Source: Entomoplasma freundtii (GTDB lineage Bacteria > Bacillota_I > Bacilli_A > Mycoplasmatales > Mycoplasmataceae). Taken from it: a stretch of 64,000 nucleotides of DNA. The DNA is taken from assembly GCF_002804205.1 (NCBI RefSeq), contig NZ_CP024962.1, positions 310,001 to 374,000 on the forward strand, given 5' to 3'. Positions within the stretch are counted from its first letter, which is position 1; each line of letters starts with the position of its first letter. Made by a program: the position numbers and the translations under genes. The notes under the pieces are model-generated. The model did not search any database and was not told the DNA's origin. It saw only the letters and a program-made list of their open reading frames with translations. Below, piece by piece: positions 8,403-34,682 of the stretch.

Positions 8403-8723
8403 TTAAATAGTTTCTATTTTTTTTATTTTAATAATGTCGTTAATTATATTATTTATCTCATTTTCAAAATAATCTTTAAAACCTTCTAAAAATTCTCTAT
8501 GCATCTCAGCGCTTCTATTTTCAGATATTCCTACTTTATTTTCGAACTTGTTAATTTCCTCAACATCTAAACTTGATAGAAAAAATAATATTTTAGAAAA
8601 AGTTTCATCAAATTCTTGATCAGTAGGATTGTCAATACTAAAAGTGTATTTATCGTTGTTTGAATTATTTGTTATAACAATTTCTTGCGGAGTAGATTCT
8701 AAAAAAAATAAATTATTCGACAT
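8403..8723 (-). CDS. Small acidic protein coupled to the PHP-ABC ATPase
   Basis: A 106-residue, acidic protein that I do not recognise. It is predicted mostly helical in the second half (repeated E/F/N/I-rich stretches) with a short beta-like N terminus. Its ATG overlaps the end of the upstream 721-aa ATPase by 11 bases, behind AAAGGAA, so the two are translationally coupled and probably act together, for example as regulator or partner subunit. It lacks membrane segments and a signal peptide. The family should be searched before any role is assigned. Confidence 0.6.
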   Translation of the reverse strand: MSNNLFFLESTPQEIVITNNSNNDKYTFSIDNPTDQEFDETFSKILFFLSSLDVEEINKFENKVGISENRSAEMHREFLEGFKDYFENEINNIINDIIKIKKIETI

Positions 8724-10878
8724 TGTAATATTCCTTTCGTAAATTTAAGGCCTTTCTTCCGCCTTCCAATATATCCAATGATTTTTGTCTCCAATCAATA
8801 TTTGCTGAAGTTTTTTCTACATCACGAAGTTGGCCAGAAAAACTATCACCAATATATGTTTTATTGTAAGGTTTAGAAATTTCTCGATAAATTATGTTTA
8901 ATGGATTAGTGTTTATTGCGATGTTAGAATTATGAGTTATCAGCAATATAATTTTATTATTTTTTTCCAATTCTTTAATTTTGTCAACTATGTAATCAAC
9001 TATCAATTTGTTATCTAAAGATTTTTCTGGCTCGTCTAGAATGTAAAATTGTTTATTTAAATCATTCAAATAATTAGACAAGGCTAAAAATTGTTCCTCA
9101 CCACTTGAGGGTTTATGATAATCACCCTTTTGGTTGACATATTCTTTAATTAAACTAACTAAATCATTTGCGTCACTAATTTCTTTTGAGTTTTCTAAAA
9201 TTACATTTGCCAATTCAATAAAAGAATTACCAAAAAATTCTCCATCTAAATCAGCAATTTTTTTTAACAAAGTTTTAGCCTTGTTCTTAGGCTTTACAAT
9301 AAACTCTTGATCTCTATTTTTTTTGCAAAGTGAAGGAGTTGATAAAAAACTTTTAACTTTAATATATATTTTTTCTTGAGACCCATCACTAGATACCACA
9401 TCACCAATAAATTTTTCGCCATTCAATTTTTCATTTTTATTCAATAATTTGTCAATTGCTTTCTTGCAATTAATTCGTCCTAATCAAATATCATATATTC
9501 CTAATTTTGATGGTTTAGTTACTGAATCTGTTTTTTTTGTTAACATCTTTTTTAAATTATTCTTTATTCCATTTATTAACTTTTTTTGGAATTTTAGGAT
9601 AAATAGCAAAATAGCTTTTTGTATAAGGACTTCTTGAACTTTTAATTTTATTAGGTTGAAATCCTTTCTTATTTCTTCGTCTAATTCATATTTAACAAGT
9701 ATGTTTTCGCAATTTTTTATAGATTGAATATCACCAATTATTTCATTAATTTCTTGTCTGCTTTGTTCTTCCAATTGGTTATTTCAAGCATGAGGCCCAT
9801 CTATAATTTCACTTATTTTTTTATATTTGTTTGTTTTTTGGGATAAAATCCATTTTTTGAAACTTTTATAATTGCTTAAAATAAGTGAGTAATTAATAGA
9901 TGATGCCATTTTAATATTCGTTATGACTTCATTTCATTCGTTTGAAATATTTAGATTATTTGTGGTTAAATTTTTGATTAGGGCTTTTTCTATTTTGTAG
10001 TAATCATCTTTGCCTTCGTAAAAATCCGGATTTATTGCAAATTTTTTTTCTAACTCTTCTTTTATTCCTCGTAAAAGGATGGTTTTGCCAGAAGCCTTTG
10101 GACCAACAATTATGTTAACTCCGGAATTCAAATTTAAATCAATTTTATATTCTCAAGCTTTACCTTGGTCTTTTGGCAAAACCGAAAGTTGATAAAGGTC
10201 TTTTTGGTTTAGTCCAAATAAAGTGTTATTTGATAAAAAATTTCGTAAGGAATTAAAATCTTTTATTTCTACCTCTGTTTCTGGCAAGTTGGTTGCATCT
10301 ATATCATCTCATCTTTGAGAATCAGATCCAACAAAGGAAGGATAATCATGATTACTTATAATAGAAGCGCTTCTTCTATTTGAAGCTTCTAAAAAATAAA
10401 CAAAAGAATCCTTTGATTTTTGTTTTATCTTATTGATATCTTTAACGGGAAAGTTTTCTCCTTTAGAACTAGAAGAGATTAATGTAATTGCTTTTCACAT
10501 TTTTATCAAATCAATAAATTTGTCCAAATCAATACAAAACTTATCAACATTTGATACATTATCATTAAGGTATTTAGAAAGCTCTTCTTTTTTACTTGGA
10601 TTAATTATGATATTGCAATTATGTGATATATTTTCAGAATCTAATACATCAATTTCAACACCAGGTAGAAAAAGAATGTGGCCTTTTGAAAATTCAACCA
10701 AATTATTAAATTGTTCCAAGTCAAAACTATTATGGTTAGTAATCGCTGATATTAGAACATTTTTTGAAAGTCTATTTTTAATAAAAATATTGTAGCTATT
10801 TTCATCATTAGGCATATCCCGAGATGATAGCTCCCCAGATTTTATTGCTTTTGTATGACAATGTAAATCTATTTTCAT
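8713..10878 (-). CDS. PHP-domain / ABC-type ATPase fusion, putative defence protein
   Basis: A 721-aa fusion. The N terminus is a PHP metal-dependent phosphoesterase domain: DLHCHT at residues 3-8, AITNHNSF near 46 and LPGVEID near 73. The rest is an SMC/RecF-like ABC ATPase: Walker A VGPKASGKT at 258-266, a helical middle section, ABC signature SSGEEQ at 591-596, Walker B FYILDEPE with D615/E616, and the switch histidine in ITHNSN at H649. PHP-ATPase fusions of this kind occur in bacterial defence islands, where the ATPase senses and the PHP domain cuts nucleic acid; that role is inference here. It is preceded by AAAGGAA and coupled to the 106-aa gene. Base composition is more AT-rich than the core genes. 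Confidence 0.8.
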
Positions 10879-11430: not shown

Positions 11431-13359
11431 ATGATAATTTATCAAGAAAATAAAGATAATTTTTTGGAAGACATTCAAAACCGTGACATACAAGATAAGA
11501 TTGCAGATTTTTATTTGGAAAAATTAGGTAAAAGACCTTCGCCATCTGAAAAGCGTTCTTGGCAAAATTCTTTAACTGAAGTTTATTATGTTTTAAATGA
11601 CCAAAGAATTCCCAATGAATCTAGGGTCACTATTGAATACAATCTTCCGAGTACAAACCGTCGGATTGATGTGATTGTTTCGGGGACCGATAACCAAGGA
11701 AAACCAACTGCGATTTTAATAGAATTAAAACAATGAGAAAAAGCAAATTTAGTAGCTACTAAGGATGGCTTGGTAACCACTTTTCTGGGTGGCAATCCAA
11801 ATAGGGAGACAGTCCATCCTTCATATCAAGTATGGTCATATTTCCAATTTATGAAGGACTATTCTCGTCTCTATCACCAAGAAAAATTAGCTTTTATTAT
11901 TTGTGCTTATTTACATAATTATAAAAAAGCTAATAATGAGCCGTTATTAGATAAGCATTATGAATATTATACAAAAGAAGCACCAATCTTTTTCAATGGC
12001 GATAATCGACTCCTTAGTGATTATATAAGTCACACAATTAAAGGTCCTGATGAACAAGGGATTATTAATAGACTGGATCAAGAACCAAAACAGCCATCAA
12101 AATCATTGCAAAATGATATCTCAAGTTTGATTTTAGAAAATGAAGATTTTGTTCTCCTGGATTCACAAAAAATTGCCTTTGAGGAAATCAAATCTCTGAC
12201 TAAAAAGTCAAAAAATGATTCTCAAAAACGTGTCGTTATCATTGAAGGAGCTCCAGGAACTGGAAAAAGTGTAATTGCCTTCCAACTTTTAGCCTCATTT
12301 CTAAAACAATCTATGAGTGTAAGCTATATTTCTAAAAATGCTGCTTTAAGAAGTGTTTTTAGTACTAAACTAATTAATAAAAAATCAAATAAAAATGATC
12401 AAGGACAACGTCTTACGAAATCACGATTGGATAATTTAATGATGGGGTCAGGCTCTTTCTATAAAACTATGCCCAATACTTATGATGTCTTATTAGTTGA
12501 TGAAGCACACCGCTTAAATTTCAAATCAGGAATGTTTAAAAATAAAGGTGAAAACCAAATAAAAGAAATTATTGAATCAACATTAGTGAGTGTCTTTTTT
12601 GTTGATGATAAACAACAAGTAACTAGTAGTGATATTGGTTCGAAAGTGCAAATCTTAACCGATGCAAAAAGCATGAATGTTAGGCCTGAAAACATAAAAA
12701 TATTAAACTTAAACTCACAATTTCGCATGAGTGGTTCAAACAACTTTCTTGAATGGTTAGATTTTGCTCTTGGTTTAGCAAGCCTTAATGAGAGCTTAAA
12801 ACCAGATTTAACATTGGATGGTTATGATTTTAAGATTTATGATTCAATTGATGAAATGACAAATGACTTAGAAACCAAAAACAATCTCAACAATAAGACA
12901 CGTCTAGTAGCGGGTTATTGTTGAGATTGGGTTAGTAAAAAAGACCCAAATTCATATGATATTGATTTATCGCCAACATTCAAAAAACAATGAAACTTAA
13001 GTAATGATAATACTTGAGCTATTAGTGAAAATTCCTTTGAACAAGTTGGATGTATCCATACCTCCCAAGGCTTAGAGTTCGATTATGTTGGTGTTATTGT
13101 TGGACCTGATTTATACATTAAAAATGGCCTTTTGAAAACGAACCCTTTGGCACGCGCCAAAACAGATAAATCATTAAATGGCCTAATTGGTCTAATTAAG
13201 AAGGGTGATCAAGAATCATTGGATAAGGCAAAACTTATTATTTTAAACACTTATCGAGTTTTGTTTACAAGAGGCACCAAAGGTTGCTATATTTATTTCA
13301 CAGATCCAGAAGTTAAGGAATATTTTCAAAATTTATTAATTAAAAATTGTAACGAATAG
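11431..13359 (+). CDS. Nuclease-helicase, DUF2075 (Schlafen-group-3 helicase) family
   Basis: A 642-aa protein. The N-terminal ~110 residues carry a PD-(D/E)xK-like nuclease pattern (RRIDVIV ... ILIELKQW), followed by the HPSYQVWSYF motif common in this family. From about residue 240 comes a superfamily 1 helicase-like ATPase: Walker A EGAPGTGKS at 272-280, Walker B LLVDEAH near 354, NSQFRMSGS near 430, the late motif QGLEFDYVGVI near 547, and TRGTKGCYIYF at the end. Such proteins are found with restriction and phage-defence genes, but no biochemical role is established for this one. It contains five or more TGA-Trp codons, so it is well adapted to the host code. It starts after AAAGGTC. Confidence 0.8.
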
Positions 13360-16730: not shown

Positions 16731-16758
16731 AAAAAAATCTTCCACGGAAGATTTTTTT
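16731..16758 (+). terminator. Terminator of the ascorbate-type PTS operon
   Basis: 12-bp stem AAAAAAATCTTC / GAAGATTTTTTT with a 4-base loop, 13 bases after the EIIB stop. Confidence 0.88.
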
Positions 16759-16853
16759 ATTTATCGTTTTATACACTTATTGGTTATTGACTTTTAGCCA
16801 TATTGATTGGAATATATATCAATAATAAATAAATAAATAGAAATTTGATAAAC

Positions 16854-18188
16854 ATGCTTCGTGTATTTGAAACGTTTGCTGGAATTGGAGCCCAGCGTAA
16901 AGCCTTGGAGCTTTTGAAAAAAGAACATTTTTTAGATTATAAAATTGTTGCAACTAGTGAATGAGATATTGGCGCAAATTTATCCTATAATTCAATTCAT
17001 TTTAACAATCAATCTTATTATGATTCTTGTATTCCAATTGATGATATAAAAGCCTACCTAAGTCAATTCACACATTCCTTGGATTCTAAAAAACCTATTA
17101 GCTTAGAGAAATTTAACAAATTAGACGATAATACCTTGCGTCACCTTTATTCTTCATATAAAAATGCCAATAATTTAGGTAGCATTACCGAAATCGAGTT
17201 TGATTCGTTAGTTAGTTTGGATATTAATTTGATTACTTATTCTTTTCCTTGCCAAGACTTAAGTTCTGCCGGAAAAAATGGCGGTATGAAAAATGGCGAT
17301 AAAACTAGGTCCGGTCTCTTATGAGAAATTGACCGTTTATTACAAGGCTTGCAAATAGAAGGAAAGTTGCCTTCTTTTCTTTTGTTAGAAAATGTTCCAA
17401 ATATGATTAAGGCCAAACATAAAGGAGATTATTCTGATTGAATAGAACATTTACACAATCAATATGGATATAAAACACAAACTTATTGTTTGGATGCCCA
17501 AGATTATGGCAGTCCACAAAAACGCAAGCGCGTTTATGCATTAAGTGTTTTGGATAATAATTCAATAATTGATATTTGGGAACATAATACTAATCTTCCA
17601 ACAAATTTACCAAGATTATTTACTGATAATAATAATTCTTTTTGAAATATTTCTAAAAAATCAAATCTTAGTGACGTTCTACGACTAGATTATAGTATTA
17701 AAAAATATTTTAATGAAGCCATGGAAGCTAGACCACGATGGACGCTAAGTCGTGAAAAAATGCTATTAAAGAACCCCCTTCTATGCCATTACTATTCGAC
17801 TAATAATGTTGATGATGACTCATTAATAAAACGGTCAACAACATTATCAATAACAACACAAGCTAAAATACAAGAGAAGTGTAGAACTGTGACTACTAAG
17901 CAAGATCGTAACCCCAATTGTGGAGTGATTAGCTTGATCGGCACTCCATTAGAGGTACCAAAATTAGAAATAAATATGAGTAGTTCTAACTATAGATTTC
18001 TAACTCCACGCGAAACGTTTATGTTAATGGGCTTCGATGAGGAAGATTACCAAAAAGTTATTATTCATCCGATTAATAATAAAGAAAAACTTTACCGCCA
18101 AGCTGGCAATAGTATAGTTGTACCAGTCCTAAAATATCTATTTTTAAATATTAATTACTTAAATCAAAGGATACAAAACGATGACTAA
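16854..18188 (+). CDS. DNA (cytosine-5) methyltransferase
   Basis: A 444-aa C5-cytosine methyltransferase with all main motifs in order: SAM-binding FETFAGIGAQ at residues 5-14, catalytic SFPCQDLSSAG with C133, LLENVPNM (motif VI, E179), QDYGSPQKRKRVY (motif VIII) and RQAGNSIVVPV near residue 416 (motif X). The target-recognition region between motifs VIII and IX (about residues 235-385) is distinctive and its DNA target is unknown. The stop overlaps the next gene by eight bases. The pairing with a DUF262/DUF1524 protein, in place of an ordinary type II endonuclease, is unusual. No strong ribosome site is visible; the start is set by the FAGIG motif. Confidence 0.93.
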
Positions 18189-20934
18189 AATGTGAAAAAT
18201 CGGTACCAATGTCGAAACCTATTTAGTAGATGCTCGTAAAATGTTCTCTAAGTTGGGCTTAGAAAAATTTAAAATTTATAAAAATGATTATGGTAATGGC
18301 TTTATGATTCAAGCTCCAAATAAGCCATCAATATTTACCACTCTTGATAAATCAGAAAGCACCATATCCCAATTATTTACATGCCTTATTAGTTTGGGAA
18401 TAATTGAAATTGAAAATAAGCAAATATGTTTAGAAAAAAGGGATAGTTTTTTTAATTCTGACTTTCTTTATAGGTTTAACTCCGAATTAAGAAATACTAC
18501 CAATTTTGATGAAGTAATAGTTCACTATTTAGATGGTCCAGAATTTAATAAAAAATTAAGTTGATATAGAGATAATTTGCAAAAGATTAAATATGATAAT
18601 TTTGACGAAGAAGATCTTGAAACTCCTTTTACCATTTTTAATGAACAAAATTTTTTGACAACCTTCTTCATTTCGGTTTTGAATAAAATTACTCCTTTTA
18701 GCGACCGTAATCTAAAAAATTGTTTTAATTTAGACAAAAAAGACTTTGAAAAAGCTAAACAATATTATGAAAATATTTTAACGCCTTCTTTTTTTTCAAA
18801 ACGGCAAATATCTTTTCAGATTTTAAAAAGACAAGCGATTTTATTTTTATTCGAAGATGAAGACATTTATGCAAAAATAATGTCTGAAGGAACTACACCA
18901 AGGCTAAATAGAATAATCGTTAAAAAAAATGAATCGGATAAATATAAAAGACAAGTTTTTAATTTAAAAGACAAACTTAAACAAACAAAAAATCCGACGC
19001 CAAATTTAATTGTTGCTGAAATTGTTTCATTTGGCTCATTAATTGAAAATTCTATTTCGCAAAACCAATCATTTAAAGTCCCTATTTATCAACGTCATTA
19101 TAAATGGGGAAGTGAAGATATAAAAAAATTATTTAATGATATTTTAGGAATTAGTAAAAAACAAAAACAATATCACTTCATGGGTAATCTTGTTGTTAAT
19201 TGACCTAAGGACGATTTAGGAATATCGGTTAATAAAAAACCAATGAAGATTATTGATGGGCAACAACGTTTTACTAGTCTTTTAATAATTTTAAAAGCTT
19301 TATATGATGTTCTTCGTGAAAGAGATATTGAGCCAGATCCTTTTATTAATCAACTATTTGTTTTAAACGAAACACGTAATTCTAACAAGATGACCTTTAT
19401 CTTTGAACATCTAAACTATAATCATGATTTCCAAGACTATAAATTTTTGATGATTAGTAAATTCAATGAAATAGATATCAATAAATCGACAATCTATAGG
19501 AATTATCAAACGATCAAAAATGTTTTTAACGAAAATGATGGCCTATCCGATCAAGAATTGTTTGATTTTACTGAGAGTCTTTTATCAAAAATTTATTTCA
19601 CTTTAACAAAAGATACAAGTCAAGATGAATTTGCCATGTTTGAAAACATGAATACGCACAAGGTTGAATTAGATACGATTGAATTAATAAAAAATTTAAT
19701 ATTAATGTATGTTGATGATGCAACTTTATCTATCCATGAAGACAAATTAGGTGAACTATTTGATAATTTAATTCTAAAAAAATTTGAGGATAAGAAATCT
19801 ATTAATGATGGAAAAATAAATTCCTTTATTGCCACTTACGTGAAATCATACCGAAGCGTATTGGTAGATGGTGAAGATGATGTTTTACGAGAAAAAATTA
19901 TTCGAGCAAAGAATAATAAGAATGAATTATATGAAATATTCAAATTAATTTTGTTACGAGAAATTAAAATTTTATCTAATAATACTAATCGTCTTACTTT
20001 TGACACCTATGGTAAATTGATTAAAAATTTAAGTTGAAATATAGACTTATTTTTAGAAATGACAGAATCGAAACTTTTCCTAGAAACTAGTTCATTTTTA
20101 TATAACATTGGTGATATTTTATTCATGTTTGGGACTAGGAACATCTATAATGCTCTAGTAATGACTCTAATTAAGCAATATCTTGATTCAAATACTCGCA
20201 AAATAAATGATTTAAACAAACTAAGAGAGTTATTATTCGAAATCGAAAATTATGAAGTAAGATTTCAGACTGTTCTTTATCGTGGCCAATCTATGAGTGA
20301 ATCAATGGATAGGATATTAACTCAAGTAATTGATAAGGGATTAAACTTAACAAAAGAGAACTTACATGAGTGCTTTAATAATAAAAGATTAGTTTCCACT
20401 TTAACATTGCCGGTCGATAATATTTTTGAAAAATATTTAGTAATGCCAATTGAAGCAGATAAACTTGTCACTAAATTGATTTTTCGAGTTAATTACTTTT
20501 TGGATAACCATTGTTCAATGTCAATTAGGGAAAATCATAGATATTCATGCCCTATATCCCCAAGCCGTGAACACATTATGCCACAAAAATATAATGAATG
20601 AGAAAAGGACCTTCGCCTAGCTATTCCTGAACTTTCGAAGGATAGGATGAAGGCCGAACATCTTGAACATGTTGCTCTTTTAGGAAATGCATTAATTCTA
20701 AATAAAAATTTAAACTCCGAAGCCTCAAATGCTAATTGACAAAAGAAAATTCAAATTTATAAAAGGGATTCTAATGTTCTAAATATGCCGCAATACAAAG
20801 GTTATACTCTAAAAAAAGTTGATTATAAAAAAGAAATTTTGCTAGATCTAGAATCAATAAATCAATGAGACTTTGATACAATTTCCAAAAGAACCCACCA
20901 GTTAAAAGATATAATATTGGATATTTATAAATAA
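18181..20934 (+). CDS. DUF262/DUF1524 (GmrSD-like) nuclease with extra N-terminal domain
   Basis: A 917-aa protein coupled to the methyltransferase by an eight-base overlap (ATGACTAA). Residues 1 to about 280 are a lysine-rich region I do not recognise. A DUF262/ParB-like NTPase domain follows with VPIYQRHYKWGSEDIKKLF near 300 and IIDGQQRFTSLLIIL at 356-370. The C terminus is a DUF1524 HNH-type nuclease: SREHIMPQ with the His near 798, then LGNALILNKNLN near 836 and NWQKKI. Proteins with this pair of domains include modification-dependent type IV enzymes (GmrSD) and SspE, which reads phosphorothioate marks. Here it probably reads, or is licensed by, the methylation state set by its neighbour; that is inference. 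Closed by a terminator. Confidence 0.85.
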
Positions 20935-20962
20935 AAAACAAAGGTTTTAACCTTTGTTTTTT
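20933..20962. terminator. Bidirectional terminator
   Basis: AAAAAACAAAGGTT pairs with AACCTTTGTTTTTT; the 3' arm ends in T. It lies between the converging nuclease gene (+) and the four-helix protein gene (-). Confidence 0.85.
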
Positions 20963-20982
20963 ATTTATAAAGTCTATAAAGA

Positions 20983-24114: not shown

Positions 24115-25590
24115 ATGAAATATTCAAAACTGACCCAATTATTTTCAAGCGATATAATAGGTTATTTTAACAGAGCAAAAGAAGTTGAGTTCTTTATACT
24201 TCCTAATTATAAAAATAATGTTGCTATCAATGGATGCTGAGGAAGTGGAAAAACGGTTTTTCTTGAAAATGTAGAAAAAACAGTATCAAAAAAATGTCTG
24301 GAACTTCAAAATAAAAAAACTATTACACTTTTGATAAAACTATGAAAATACGAAGTTATTGATAATAACTTTTTTTTAGTTGTTGTAAAAGATATTATTC
24401 AAAATATCCTTGATCAAGTAGTGGAGGTTGACAAGAAGCAGAAAGGGAAAATTAAAAAATGGACTAAAAAATTAGTTGATGAAATGGAAAAACTTTCGTG
24501 ATCACTGAACTTCGGTTTTTCATGTGCAAATTTAACATTGTCTAAAGGAGTGAAAAATATATTAAATATTAATGATAATTTTTCTTTTTTCAAAGGAATA
24601 ACTTCTCTTATAAATTATTTAAGGAAACTTTTTAAAAATTTTTCAGAATATAATTTCCTTATTGGTTTTGATGATTTGGACCGATGTTCTGAAGAAAATA
24701 TTTTAAAACTTTTAACAGTTCTAAAAATAATTTTCTTTGAAATAAAAGAACAAAATGTCTTTTTTGTAACAACGATAAATTCGAAACAAATAGATTGTCT
24801 AAACAAATCTACTGAAAGTTATATTCAGAAAATTTTTGATTACATATTTGATTTGGAAAATGAAATAGAATATTCTTCACAAATTGGTAAAAGAAATCCT
24901 TATGAGTCTAATTTGATAAATCATTTTAAGTATAAAAATTATAGATTTGTAGATAATTTGAATTTTAAAGAAATAAGTTCGGAAACTTCAACAAGCAAAC
25001 CCGAAATATTAGCGAATAATTTTTATTGCCTATATAAGGAACTTCTTAATAATACTAAAGTAATACTGAAAATGAATGAAGTTGAAAGAATACAAAAATG
25101 ATTAGAGGATAAAAAAAATTTTATTTATTCCCAAAATAACTTTAATAGTTTTATAAATAGCCAAGCTTTCGAAGATATTTGAACTTCCTTAAAAAATAAA
25201 ATAATCAAACCTTTTTATTTTTGCTTTATAAAAAAAGACAAATATATTTATTTGCCCTGAAGTATATTGTTTTTTGTTAATCTAAATTCTTTGGAAGAAC
25301 ATTTAGAAAAGTTAAGTTATTTGTATCCTTTTAACCCTGATGAATATCCGGAATTTAAGGACAAAATAAAAGGCAACTATTTTACAATTCCTATAATTCT
25401 CGATTATTTTGAGCAACTAAACTCAACTATTTTTTTAGATACAAGTACCCAAATTTTTATAGACAATTTGATTGACATTTTTGATGATTGTAATATTTAT
25501 AATCAAAAAAATCACGCTAGTTATACTCATTTGGCATGAACCTGAACCGAAGAAATTTTTGAAGATTTAATAAAACATAATCAAAGTTAA
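24115..25590 (+). CDS. KAP-family P-loop NTPase
   Basis: A 491-aa protein. Walker A is NGCWGSGKT at residues 39-47, where the Trp is encoded by TGA, and Walker B is the classical KAP motif FDDLDRC (D186-D190). Sensor-like residues follow in VFFVTTINSK. Most KAP NTPases carry membrane helices inserted in the P-loop domain; here only weakly hydrophobic segments are seen, so it may be peripheral. The C-terminal ~250 residues are Asn/Lys/Phe-rich and unrecognised. Some KAP proteins block phage growth, for example PifA, but this one has no known activity. It lies directly behind udk, and its composition is more AT-rich than udk, which suggests acquisition. A terminator follows. Confidence 0.8.
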
Positions 25591-31112: not shown

Positions 31113-32744
31113 TTAAGCTTGAGCTAAAACTTCTTGCTCTTTAGTTTTGGCTGCCTTGGCTGCTAAACGTGCTTGCTTTTCTACTTCTTTTTTAAGTCTG
31201 GCTTTTTCTTCAACTTTTTCTTGGTATTTTGGTCCAATAAAGACAAATGGTAATCAAACTAAGAAAGAAATAGCTAACTGAATGACCGACACAAGAATTG
31301 ATCACCAATCAAAATCAGTAGCAAAGAGGACGTTTAAACCATAAGGCATTGTTGGTGTTCATACCACCCCAGGACGAATTCAGTGAATTAAGATTCAAAC
31401 ATGACCTAATGTATAAGTAAGAACAAATCCAAATGTATAGGGAATAAAGTAAACTGGGTTTAAAACAATTGGTACTCCAAAGTTTACCGGCTCATTAATA
31501 CCGAAAACACCCGGAACAATTGACAATTTAGCAATGTCTTTATGGACTTTTGACTTAGTAAAAATTAATAAACCTATGAGGAACCCTAGTGTTGCACCGG
31601 TGCCGCCAACATAACCTAACCCGGCCATAGGAATTGGCATTAATCCTGCTTGATCAACCCCACTGACATTAATAACATCATTTCAGTAATCAGTTCCATA
31701 GCGCCCAGTTTTTCATAGCGATCAGTAAGCAGTATTTCTTAAAACATTCGCATCCCAAATAATTGCAGTAACTGGTGTTAAAATGTTAGTTCCGTGGATT
31801 CCAAAGAACCAAAAGAAAGCGACTAAGAAGGAAATAACGATTGTCACCCCAATATTTCCACTCAACCCCATTAATGGTTTTGCTAAACCAAATTCTAAGG
31901 CAATAAATAAAGTGGCTAATTGACGTGAATAAGTAGTGGTAGTAATTACGCCATTATTATCAGTTGTAGCACTGATTTCCCCACGAATATCCACCTCTGT
32001 TGCTAAAACATTCCAAAAACTATTTAAGAATGAGAAGGAAGTTAACACAATTGCTGAAACGAAAATCGCTCCAAACGCCTTCGCCACCATTGGGGGCACC
32101 GCATCAGGCATCTTCGGCACAAGCCACTTGACATCCATTAACTTGCAATACATCCAAGTTGCGAGCATACTTGCCAATAAGGCAATTAACATCCCGTTAG
32201 TACTTAAGAAGTTAGTGGCGAAGGTCGAAACTTCGCCAGCATTGTCACCACCGACAACGACTTGGTTAACTCCATCCAAAGGTTTCATGGCAAAGAAGAC
32301 CGCTACTGACAAAGCTGCAGCAATAATTCCATCTTTCCCATACGATTTCGCTAAGAAATAACCCATTCCCACAGCGACATAAATGGCAAAACCAGCCATT
32401 ACAGCTCAAAAAACGTTTTCTAATGGTGATCCGATTAACTTATGGACTCATTCTAGTCCTTCTGAGGTTCAATCTTTATCACCCTTAGCACTTTTAATAA
32501 ATCCTGCAATCATGGAGTTTTTGTGGAAGAACACATTACTCATGATTAAAGGAATCGCTGCTCCAGTTGTTAAGGTAAATGGCAACATAAAAGCATCACG
32601 AATCGCCACTAGAAAACGATTATTACCGACACTAGAGCCAACCTTGATAATTCCATTCATTGAATTCTCTCTGAACTTCGCAAACTTTTGTTTCTTATTT
32701 TGCGTGCGCAAAGCAGTATTCAAATTCTTATCAGAATTCTTCAT
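31113..32744 (-). CDS. PTS EIIC, lactose/cellobiose family (downstream copy)
   Basis: Membrane channel of 543 aa with about ten helices and the family motifs FGIHGTN and GINEPVNFGVPIVLNP. The C terminus ends in a charged Lys/Glu/Ala-rich tail. It is the second of two tandem copies. The first ~315 residues differ from the upstream copy at only about three positions and are nearly identical in DNA, while the last ~220 residues and the flanking DNA have diverged. That pattern fits duplication followed by gene conversion. It shares the operon's single EIIA and EIIB, so both copies probably use the same phosphorylation partners and may differ in substrate range through the C-terminal half. Confidence 0.9.
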
Positions 32745-33038: not shown

Positions 33039-34682
33039 TTAAGCTTCGGTTAACACTTCTTCGCGTTTTTCTAATTCTTTTGCTTTCGCTGCTTTTTCAG
33101 CTAAACGTGCTTGTTTTTCTTCTTCTTTTTTCAGTCTAGCTTTTTCTTCGACTTTGGCTTGGTATTTTGGACCAATAAAGACAAATGGTAATCAGACTAA
33201 GAATGAAAGGGCCAACTGCACAACCGAGACGAGAATTGATCATCAATCAAAGTCGGTAGCAAATAAAATGTTTATTCCAAATGGCATCGTTGGTGTCCAT
33301 ACTACTCCAGGACGAATTCAGTGAATTAAAATTCAAACATGACCCATTGTATAAACTAGAACAAACCCAAATGTATAAGGAATAAAGTAGATTGGGTTTA
33401 AAACAATTGGGACCCCAAAGTTTACTGGTTCGTTAATTCCAAAAAGAGCTGGGACAATTGACAATTTAGCAATGTCTTTATGGACTTTTGACTTAGTGAA
33501 AATTAATAAACCAATTAAGAACCCAAGTGTTGCACCAGTTCCACCGATATAACCTAATCCGGCCATAGGAATTGGCATTAAACCAGCTTGATCAACTCCA
33601 CTCACATTAATAACATCAGTTCAGTAATCAGTTCCATAGTCACCAGTTTTTCATTTAGCTCAGTAGGCAGCATTTCTTAAGATATTTGCATCCCAAATAA
33701 TGGCAGTAACTGGTGTTAAAATGTTAGTTCCGTGGATTCCAAAGAACCAAAAGAAAGCGACTAAGAAGGAAATAACGATTGTTACCCCAACATTTCCACT
33801 CAACCCCATTAATGGTTTTGCTAAACCAAATTCTAAGGCAATAAATAAAGTGGCTAATTGACGTGAATAAGTAGTAGTAGTAATTACGCCATTATTATCA
33901 GTTGTGGCACTAATTTCCCCACGAATATCCACCTCTGTTGCTAAAACATTCCAAAAACTATTTAAGAATGAGAAGGAAGTCAACACAATTGCTGAAACGA
34001 AAATCGCTCCAAATGCCTTCGCCACCATTGGGGGCACCGCATCGGGCATCTTCGGCACGAGCCACTTGACATCCATTAACTTGCAATACATCCAAGTTGC
34101 GAGCATACTTGCCAATAAGGCAATTAACATCCCGTTAGTACTTAAGAAGTTAGTGGCGAAGGTCGAAACTTCGCCAGCATTGTCACCACCGACAACGACT
34201 TGGTTAACTCCATCCAAAGGTTTCATGGCAAAGAAGACGGCTACTGACAAAGCAGCAGCAATAATTCCATCTTTCCCATACGATTTCGCTAAGAAATAAC
34301 CCATTCCCACAGCGACATAAATGGCAAAACCAGCCATTACAGCTCAAAAAACGTTTTCTAATGGTGATCCGATTAACTTATGGACTCATTCTAGTCCTTC
34401 TGAGGTTCAATCTTTATCACCCTTAGCACTTTTAATAAACCCTGCAATCATGGAGTTTTTGTGGAAGAACACATTACTCATGATTAAAGGAATCGCTGCT
34501 CCAGTTGTTAAGGTAAATGGCAACATAAAAGCATCACGAATCGCCACTAGAAAACGATTATTACCGACACTAGAGCCAACCTTGATAATTCCATTCATTG
34601 AATTCTCTCTGAACTTCGCAAACTTTTGTTTCTTATTTTGCGTGCGCAAAGCAGTATTCAAATTCTTATCAGAATTCTTCAT
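33039..34682 (-). CDS. PTS EIIC, lactose/cellobiose family (upstream copy)
   Basis: The 547-aa first copy of the duplicated channel, in the same orientation exactly 1938 bases from its twin. Its motifs and topology are as in the twin; the differences lie in the C-terminal half (for example FGINEPVNFG is preceded by SIVPALF here, SIVPGVF there, and the tail differs). It follows the operon's EIIB, 71-aa and 218-aa genes. Having the copy proximal to the promoter suggests it is the more highly expressed one. Confidence 0.9.

Follow-up and report, generated by a model that had tools for sequence, protein, structure and literature searches.

The 64,000-nucleotide stretch of the Entomoplasma freundtii genome analyzed here (contig NZ_CP024962.1, positions 310,001 to 374,000; hereafter the window) contains a 5-methylcytosine (m5C) DNA methyltransferase gene that overlaps the gene of a 917-residue nuclease of the GmrSD family. 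We propose, with a probability of about 0.6, that their predicted activities make up a modification-protected restriction-modification (R-M) system in which the GmrSD-family protein is the endonuclease of the methyltransferase. GmrSD proteins are classed as Type IV enzymes needing no methyltransferase, whereas the window protein has an overlapping and conserved m5C methyltransferase as its candidate cognate enzyme. The host is a small insect-associated bacterium, a Mollicute with a single-contig genome of 838,114 bp, which encodes one GmrSD homologue and one PF00145 methyltransferase, the paired one.

The gene pair and its conservation

Open reading frames (ORFs) were translated with table 4 (the Mollicute code, UGA = Trp); both genes would seem broken under table 11, because their frames require UGA to be read as Trp. 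With table 4 we confirmed the eight-base overlap that a preliminary description of this DNA had reported, and all of the motif strings quoted there are present. In addition to the catalytic cysteine, the methyltransferase has the motifs FAGIG (residue 8), ENV (179), QKRKR (222), and RQAGNS (415); its nearest PDB relative is M.MpeI (4dkj/8c56, 7e-44), the match covering the catalytic core but not the target-recognition domain (TRD). The downstream protein has the features of the GmrSD family, namely DUF262 with DGQQR and a DUF1524 HNH domain with xHxxP, its VPIYQR motif starting at residue 300. The kinship with GmrSD and SspE suggested in the preliminary description was borne out by domain matches (PF03235 and PF07510) and by a PDB search with a full-length AlphaFold2 model (mean predicted local distance difference test score [pLDDT] 77), which returned SspE (1.1e-11), DndI (4.9e-11), and BrxU (3.8e-5) as the nearest solved folds. 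Such model-based matches settle the family of the nuclease, not its mode of action.

Our survey began with 149 relatives and recovered GmrSD homologues in 33 genomes, the GmrSD gene adjoining an m5C methyltransferase in 14/14 of the first wide neighborhoods. After two wider rounds the same gene pair, which the preliminary description had suggested seeking in other genomes, was found in 51 operons that encode the methyltransferase together with a homologue of the nuclease N-terminus (the N-module); these represent four families, all within the window's order, and include related genomes, so that they are not independent events. The methyltransferase and the next gene overlap at 40 of 52 junctions and lie no more than 10 bp apart at 50. 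Outside this group, 79 bacterial and archaeal DUF262 loci were examined, and none has a homologous m5C methyltransferase within up to 10 kb, indicating that the pairing is not a general trait of DUF262 genes. The N-module turned up only in the window's order when 395 genomes of the class and 392 of the phylum were searched. We found no paper describing this operon family in a search that covered neither REBASE nor most subscription papers, where members may be annotated.

The association was also evident in loci gathered by methyltransferase similarity alone, most of which had not been used in building the profiles. The N-module lies beside 13 of the 15 methyltransferases of the window's clade and beside none of the 28 others (Fisher p=2.9e-9). 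These 28 include 20 orthologues of the CpG-specific M.MpeI type, one of which (locus L231) is M.MpeI itself at 99% identity; published CpG methyltransferases are orphans (PMC9465063), consistent with this result, and a hidden GmrSD partner for them was rejected on the 20 loci. CpG specificity of the window methyltransferase was likewise rejected, since only the core aligns with M.MpeI (residues 2-236 and 376-438) and the M.MpeI orthologues lack the partner. The window enzyme is not a whole-protein orthologue of M.MpeI or M.SssI, and its clade also differs in genomic context. When GmrSD was used as the anchor, an m5C methyltransferase was adjacent to 39/40 module-bearing proteins but to only 9/24 module-less ones (p=1e-7), a less independent test because loci of this kind went into the module profile. 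Several of those nine are a second GmrSD by the main operon or have an extended N-terminus that gave no module match.

Three module-GmrSD loci (L175, L176, and L199) lack the usual methyltransferase and have instead an ORF of 190-267 aa that overlaps the module or GmrSD gene, contains the motif PPCESWS, and matches PF00145 only weakly (2e-4 to 3e-3, under the cut-off). This ORF is an unrelated m5C-methyltransferase-like gene in place of the usual one.

The N-terminal module

Residues 1-285 of the nuclease have no Pfam match, and the preliminary description had allowed that this region might be a fusion artefact. However, in many relatives GmrSD lacks the window's N-terminus, and the homologue is a separate gene of 180-250 aa in the same operon; fusion to GmrSD and a separate gene are equally common forms of the N-module, with 25 operons each. 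Its signature is W-x-(I/V)-G-T-N plus a S/T-x-x-Q-x4-L-x2-(L/F)-G helix, and by this homology the N-terminus is a conserved module and no artefact. We also identified fusions to other nuclease domains: L255 (5226-6467) joins the N-module to HNH_2 (PF13391, 2.1e-6) and overlaps the methyltransferase with GmrSD absent, and L173 (7781-8938; same locus as L245) joins it to NOV_C (PF13020, 2e-8) with a module-less GmrSD gene next. The D..ExK-like motif of the latter suggests a PD-(D/E)XK fold. Both fusions adjoin methyltransferases of the window's clade and are nuclease partners of an ordinary kind, and because the fusions include HNH_2 and NOV_C, the module and methyltransferase can be regarded as constant parts with an exchangeable nuclease domain.

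AlphaFold2 modeling of the first 290 residues gave pLDDT values mostly of 79-88 for residues 11-130, which form a helix, three strands, a helix, and a short strand. Where the module is encoded separately (L028-L033, L181, and L182), a different domain often occupies the N-terminus of GmrSD; it bears an R-x4-H-like motif and by eye resembles HEPN/DUF4145. Two candidates were rejected: the small protein of L029 as an MspI relative (E=0.006, below the cut-off, with no match for its homologues), which is an N-module, and a putative further copy of the N-module at G000 34250-34636 in the window genome, whose frame is broken and which is non-significant with the refined profile.

Repeats and probable switching, proposed mechanism, and alternative readings

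In 39/51 operons the methyltransferase gene either contains a long simple repeat or has one in the 250 bp before it (A/T runs of 15-18, (TA)n, (GA)n, or G9-11, with thresholds set after the data were seen). Of the 54 repeats in all operon DNA, 39 fall in the 10% made up of methyltransferase promoters and coding sequences (p=4e-27). Long poly-A/T or (TA)n tracts occupy the promoters in L021-L031, L166, L170, L186, L187, L259, and others, being placed between the helicase and methyltransferase genes in the helicase-bearing operons L021 and L022, and (GA)n or G-runs occur within the methyltransferase genes of L026, L027, L028, L177, L188, L192, and L255. In L027, L028, and L188 the repeat shifts the methyltransferase out of frame, and the overlapping downstream gene is intact. 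Because the repeat sits in the methyltransferase promoter or gene, methyltransferase and nuclease probably switch together, that is, the operon is probably phase variable in the relatives. No repeat of this kind is present in the methyltransferase promoter or gene of the window copy. Promoter repeats are also present upstream of several CpG methyltransferases (L236, L238, L243, and L247).

A phospholipase D (PLD)-superfamily 2 (SF2) helicase or a PLD part is upstream of the methyltransferase in 12 of the 51 operons, counting a fragment in L025. Full proteins of this type, with PLD and SF2 (ResIII) helicase parts and ~930-1030 aa long, are directly 5' of the methyltransferase in L021 (11127-13937), L022 (3228-6029), L023, L024, L029, L031, L181, L182, L184, L195, and L196; no SRA or DUF3427 match was found in the PLD helicases scanned. 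Many helicase-free relatives have an intact pair. A PLD helicase elsewhere in the window genome was rejected, as there is just a weak helicase-motif match (7.5e-5 over 99 residues) and no close homologue. The nuclease is broken in L179 and L025, the methyltransferase of L179 remaining intact, whereas the reverse loss, an intact N-module and nuclease beside a permanently dead methyltransferase, has no clear case among the operons surveyed.

In the proposed system the methyltransferase would methylate cytosine in a specific site and thereby protect the host, and the downstream protein would be made by translational coupling through the overlap. The N-module would help to bring the nuclease to its target, either directly at the unmethylated site or through contact with the methyltransferase, NTP hydrolysis by DUF262 would act as a switch for proofreading, and DNA without the mark would be cleaved by the DUF1524 HNH domain. 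In relatives the module may act as its own subunit or joined to other nuclease domains, optionally with the upstream PLD-SF2 helicase, and simple repeats would turn the operon, methyltransferase and nuclease together, on and off. Given the overlap and the repeats upstream of or inside the methyltransferase gene, the operon appears to be set up so that the nuclease is not made without the methyltransferase. An R-M system is the most economical reading, as it fits the co-inheritance, the translation-coupled gene order, the apparent joint switching, the HNH_2 replacement, and the pattern of loss, and it would resolve without licensing by the host mark the paradox, raised in the preliminary description, of a cutter of modified DNA paired with a modifier.

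This reading draws on the linkage and co-inheritance of the nuclease with the methyltransferase (51 operons; 13/15 versus 0/28) and on the absence of any other identified partner for the methyltransferase in the window genome. Several points weigh against it. BrxU cuts m5C DNA, not unmodified DNA (PMC8565348), SspE is licensed by phosphorothioate (PMC9646914), and the two best folds by E-value, SspE and DndI, are both phosphorothioate-sensing. Mycoplasma hominis DCM5, whose type is probably a second methyltransferase form of the operon, lacks motif I and a detected methylation motif (PMC10305163). The modeling of the N-terminus proposed in the preliminary description did yield a model with pLDDT mostly of 79-88 for residues 11-130, but no match at E<=0.001 in the PDB or viral libraries and hence no recognized DNA-binding fold. 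Finally, coevolution of the N-module with the methyltransferase TRD was not above background (partial r=0.03, p=0.28) in a test of low power, module distances being near saturation, which leaves a module that recognizes sequence and coevolves with the TRD unsupported. The role proposed for the module is accordingly a prediction, and docking is nearly as likely as DNA reading.

A docking variant, in which the N-module is a docking or inhibitory subunit binding the methyltransferase or nuclease and specificity comes from the methyltransferase, is possible but doubtful; it overlaps with the R-M reading, and the confidences of the readings therefore do not sum to one. In Type III systems, to which this variant can be likened, Res works through Mod. 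The module is fast-evolving and nearly always encoded directly beside the methyltransferase, which together with the negative coevolution result and the lack of a recognized DNA-binding fold accords with docking, although the module also pairs with the unrelated methyltransferase-like partner, so that the interface would need to re-evolve. The preliminary description had instead suggested a methylation-licensed version of Ssp-type logic. In the form considered here, the nuclease would sense the host mark, either with its N-module or through the YQR face that DUF262 presents; the mark would raise its NTPase activity and convert it to a nickase attacking phage DNA, and affinity for methylated sites would spare the host. 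We kept this alternative because the characterized relatives read modified DNA (m5C for BrxU, phosphorothioate for SspE). BrxU shows that the family is able to sense m5C (PMC8565348), the nearest folds by E-value both sense phosphorothioate, and the phosphorothioate-sensing Y30 and Q31 of SspE (PMC9646914) correspond to Y303 and the invariant Q304 here. Nonetheless, YQR is a generic motif of DUF262 domains, its Tyr varies within the paired family (Met in L026), and the module also occurs beside the same methyltransferase clade in HNH_2 or NOV_C fusions that lack DUF262. No observation is specific to licensing, and considering also the operon layout that would withhold the nuclease without the methyltransferase and the precedent of LlaJI, we regard it as unlikely.

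We consider it highly unlikely that the nuclease acts as a conventional Type IV enzyme, tolerant of simple m5C and directed at phage DNA that is hypermodified by hydroxymethylation or glucosylation, with the methyltransferase derived from a decayed or separate R-M unit as a mere neighbor, like BrxU in BREX. GmrSD proteins are often found among other R-M genes (PMC4619093), and Mollicutes also have stand-alone GmrSDs without module or methyltransferase (L161, L164, L165, and others), but the tie to a methyltransferase holds only for module-bearing GmrSDs, the overlap geometry is kept across four families, and the window genome offers the methyltransferase no other identified partner. We give just as little credence to a solitary regulatory methyltransferase with a decaying neighbor, the pair no longer being a functional restriction unit in the window genome. 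Such decay would be in keeping with the broken nucleases of some relatives and with the missing promoter repeat and helicase of the window copy; against it, neither reading frame of the window pair is interrupted (444 and 917 codons), every catalytic motif is present, and many relatives are helicase-free yet intact.

Features of the window and comparison with known systems

Coordinates of the pair are given in the table. A consensus scan picked up neither of the two flanking inverted repeats.

Features of the methyltransferase-nuclease pair, numbered from the first base of the window
Feature	Position	Strand	Evidence or remark
m5C DNA methyltransferase (444 aa)	16854..18188	+	PF00145 4.6e-50, TIGR00675 5.2e-44; ATG at 16854
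Catalytic Cys133 codon (SFPCQ, motif IV)	17250..17252	+	sequence, computed position
Methyltransferase target-recognition region, ~residues 233-343	17550..17882	+	fast-evolving, no alignment to M.MpeI TRD
Stop/start overlap of the two genes, exactly 8 bp, ATGACTAA	18181..18188	+	
GmrSD-family nuclease including N-terminal module (917 aa)	18181..20934	+	PF03235 1.3e-26, PF07510 9.3e-12
N-module core, ~residues 1-140, W-x-I-G-T-N ... S/T-x-x-Q-x4-L-x2-L-G-I-I	18181..18600	+	homology to separate 180-250 aa proteins of relatives' operons
Helical low-confidence linker from N-module core to DUF262, residues 141-289	18601..19047	+	pLDDT 33-60 over most, full-length model
DUF262 / GmrSD_N NTPase-type domain, residues 290-507	19048..19701	+	E=1.3e-26
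DGQQR nucleotide-hydrolysis motif, residues 359-363	19255..19269	+	invariant across 31 aligned homologues
DUF1524 / GmrSD_C HNH nuclease domain, residues 770-909	20488..20907	+	E=9.3e-12
EHIMP nuclease motif, residues 797-801	20569..20583	+	His798 invariant within family
Inverted repeat and T-run 3' of the preceding phosphotransferase system (PTS) gene; probable upstream cassette boundary	16731..16759	+	read from sequence
Inverted repeat and T-run directly past the nuclease stop; probable operon terminator	20936..20965	+	read from sequence

Two candidate defense genes are present 5' of the pair, one encoding a 721-aa protein (8713-10878, minus strand) that starts MKIDLHCHT (PHP-like) and has an AAA ATPase and a PADLOC PDC-M49A match (3.5e-21), and the other, 3.5 kb from the pair, a 642-aa Schlafen group 3 helicase (11431-13359, plus strand; PF09848 2.5e-86) with weak AbiO/Nhi/PDC-S41 matches. 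A 491-aa KAP-family NTPase (PF07693 1.4e-10; weak PADLOC PifA/PDC-S20) is encoded at 24115-25590 on the plus strand. Two large minus-strand ORFs of almost the same length (543 and 547 aa, at 31113-32744 and 33039-34682) stand in tandem, each with internal ORFs that match those of the other, and may reflect a recent gene duplication.

The nuclease shares with GmrSD and BrxU the same two catalytic domains and motifs (DGQQR and EHxxP-type), as reflected in the BrxU fold match (3.8e-5), but those enzymes act without a methyltransferase and cut modified DNA, whereas the window pair has a dedicated overlapping m5C methyltransferase and an N-module; none of the BREX genes pglX, pglZ, and brxC is among the scanned ORFs around the pair. 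SspE of the Ssp system and DndI are the best fold matches by E-value and likewise combine a host-modification gene with a DUF262-DUF1524 effector. They differ in that phosphorothioation replaces one-enzyme base methylation and in lacking the additional N-module of the window nuclease. No SspABCD genes adjoin the pair in its neighborhood, the one part of the genome searched for them, where the neighbors are the PTS gene, the methyltransferase, a membrane protein, and the KAP NTPase.

Among solved structures M.MpeI is nearest to the window methyltransferase core, but M.MpeI and M.SssI have another TRD, and none of the 20 orthologues checked is partnered by a GmrSD protein or a module. M. hominis DCM5 was listed by its authors as solitary and possibly inactive, its neighbor prompting the suggestion of a possible defense role (PMC10305163). 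It has 253-256 aa, a weak C5-methyltransferase match, and a DUF1524 protein of 979 aa encoded downstream (PMC10305163), features that recall L175, L176, and L199. DCM5 and its downstream gene are thus probably the second-methyltransferase form of the operon, a match made on size, domain content, and gene order rather than on aligned sequences. That study describes neither the module, the family, nor the repeats (PMC10305163). If the R-M reading is true, some mycoplasma methyltransferases now called solitary, probably including DCM5, would gain a partner, and the repeats at the operon start point to a possible phase-variable barrier to DNA transfer.

CglI and NgoAVII consist of a PLD nuclease, a DEAD helicase, and a methyltransferase (PMC4267653), and the operons with an upstream PLD-SF2 helicase or PLD part (12/51) recall these systems and the PLD-helicase SauUSI; in the relatives' operons, however, PLD and helicase are fused, and the constant partner of the methyltransferase is the module or GmrSD. 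LlaJI, a McrBC-type system with methyltransferases of its own, acts on an unmodified site (PMC12707154). Were the R-M reading correct, the GmrSD family would have undergone the conversion to a modification-protected system that LlaJI represents for McrBC, and its self/non-self discrimination would become testable in one two-gene operon. The Pfam scan of the window nuclease shows GmrSD domains only, with no LlaJI-type McrB, McrC, or B3 parts. LlaJI joins a modification-dependent nuclease family with methyltransferases and a site-recognition domain (PMC12707154), using McrB/McrC-related parts and a B3 domain; the comparable parts of the window pair would be GmrSD and an unclassified module.

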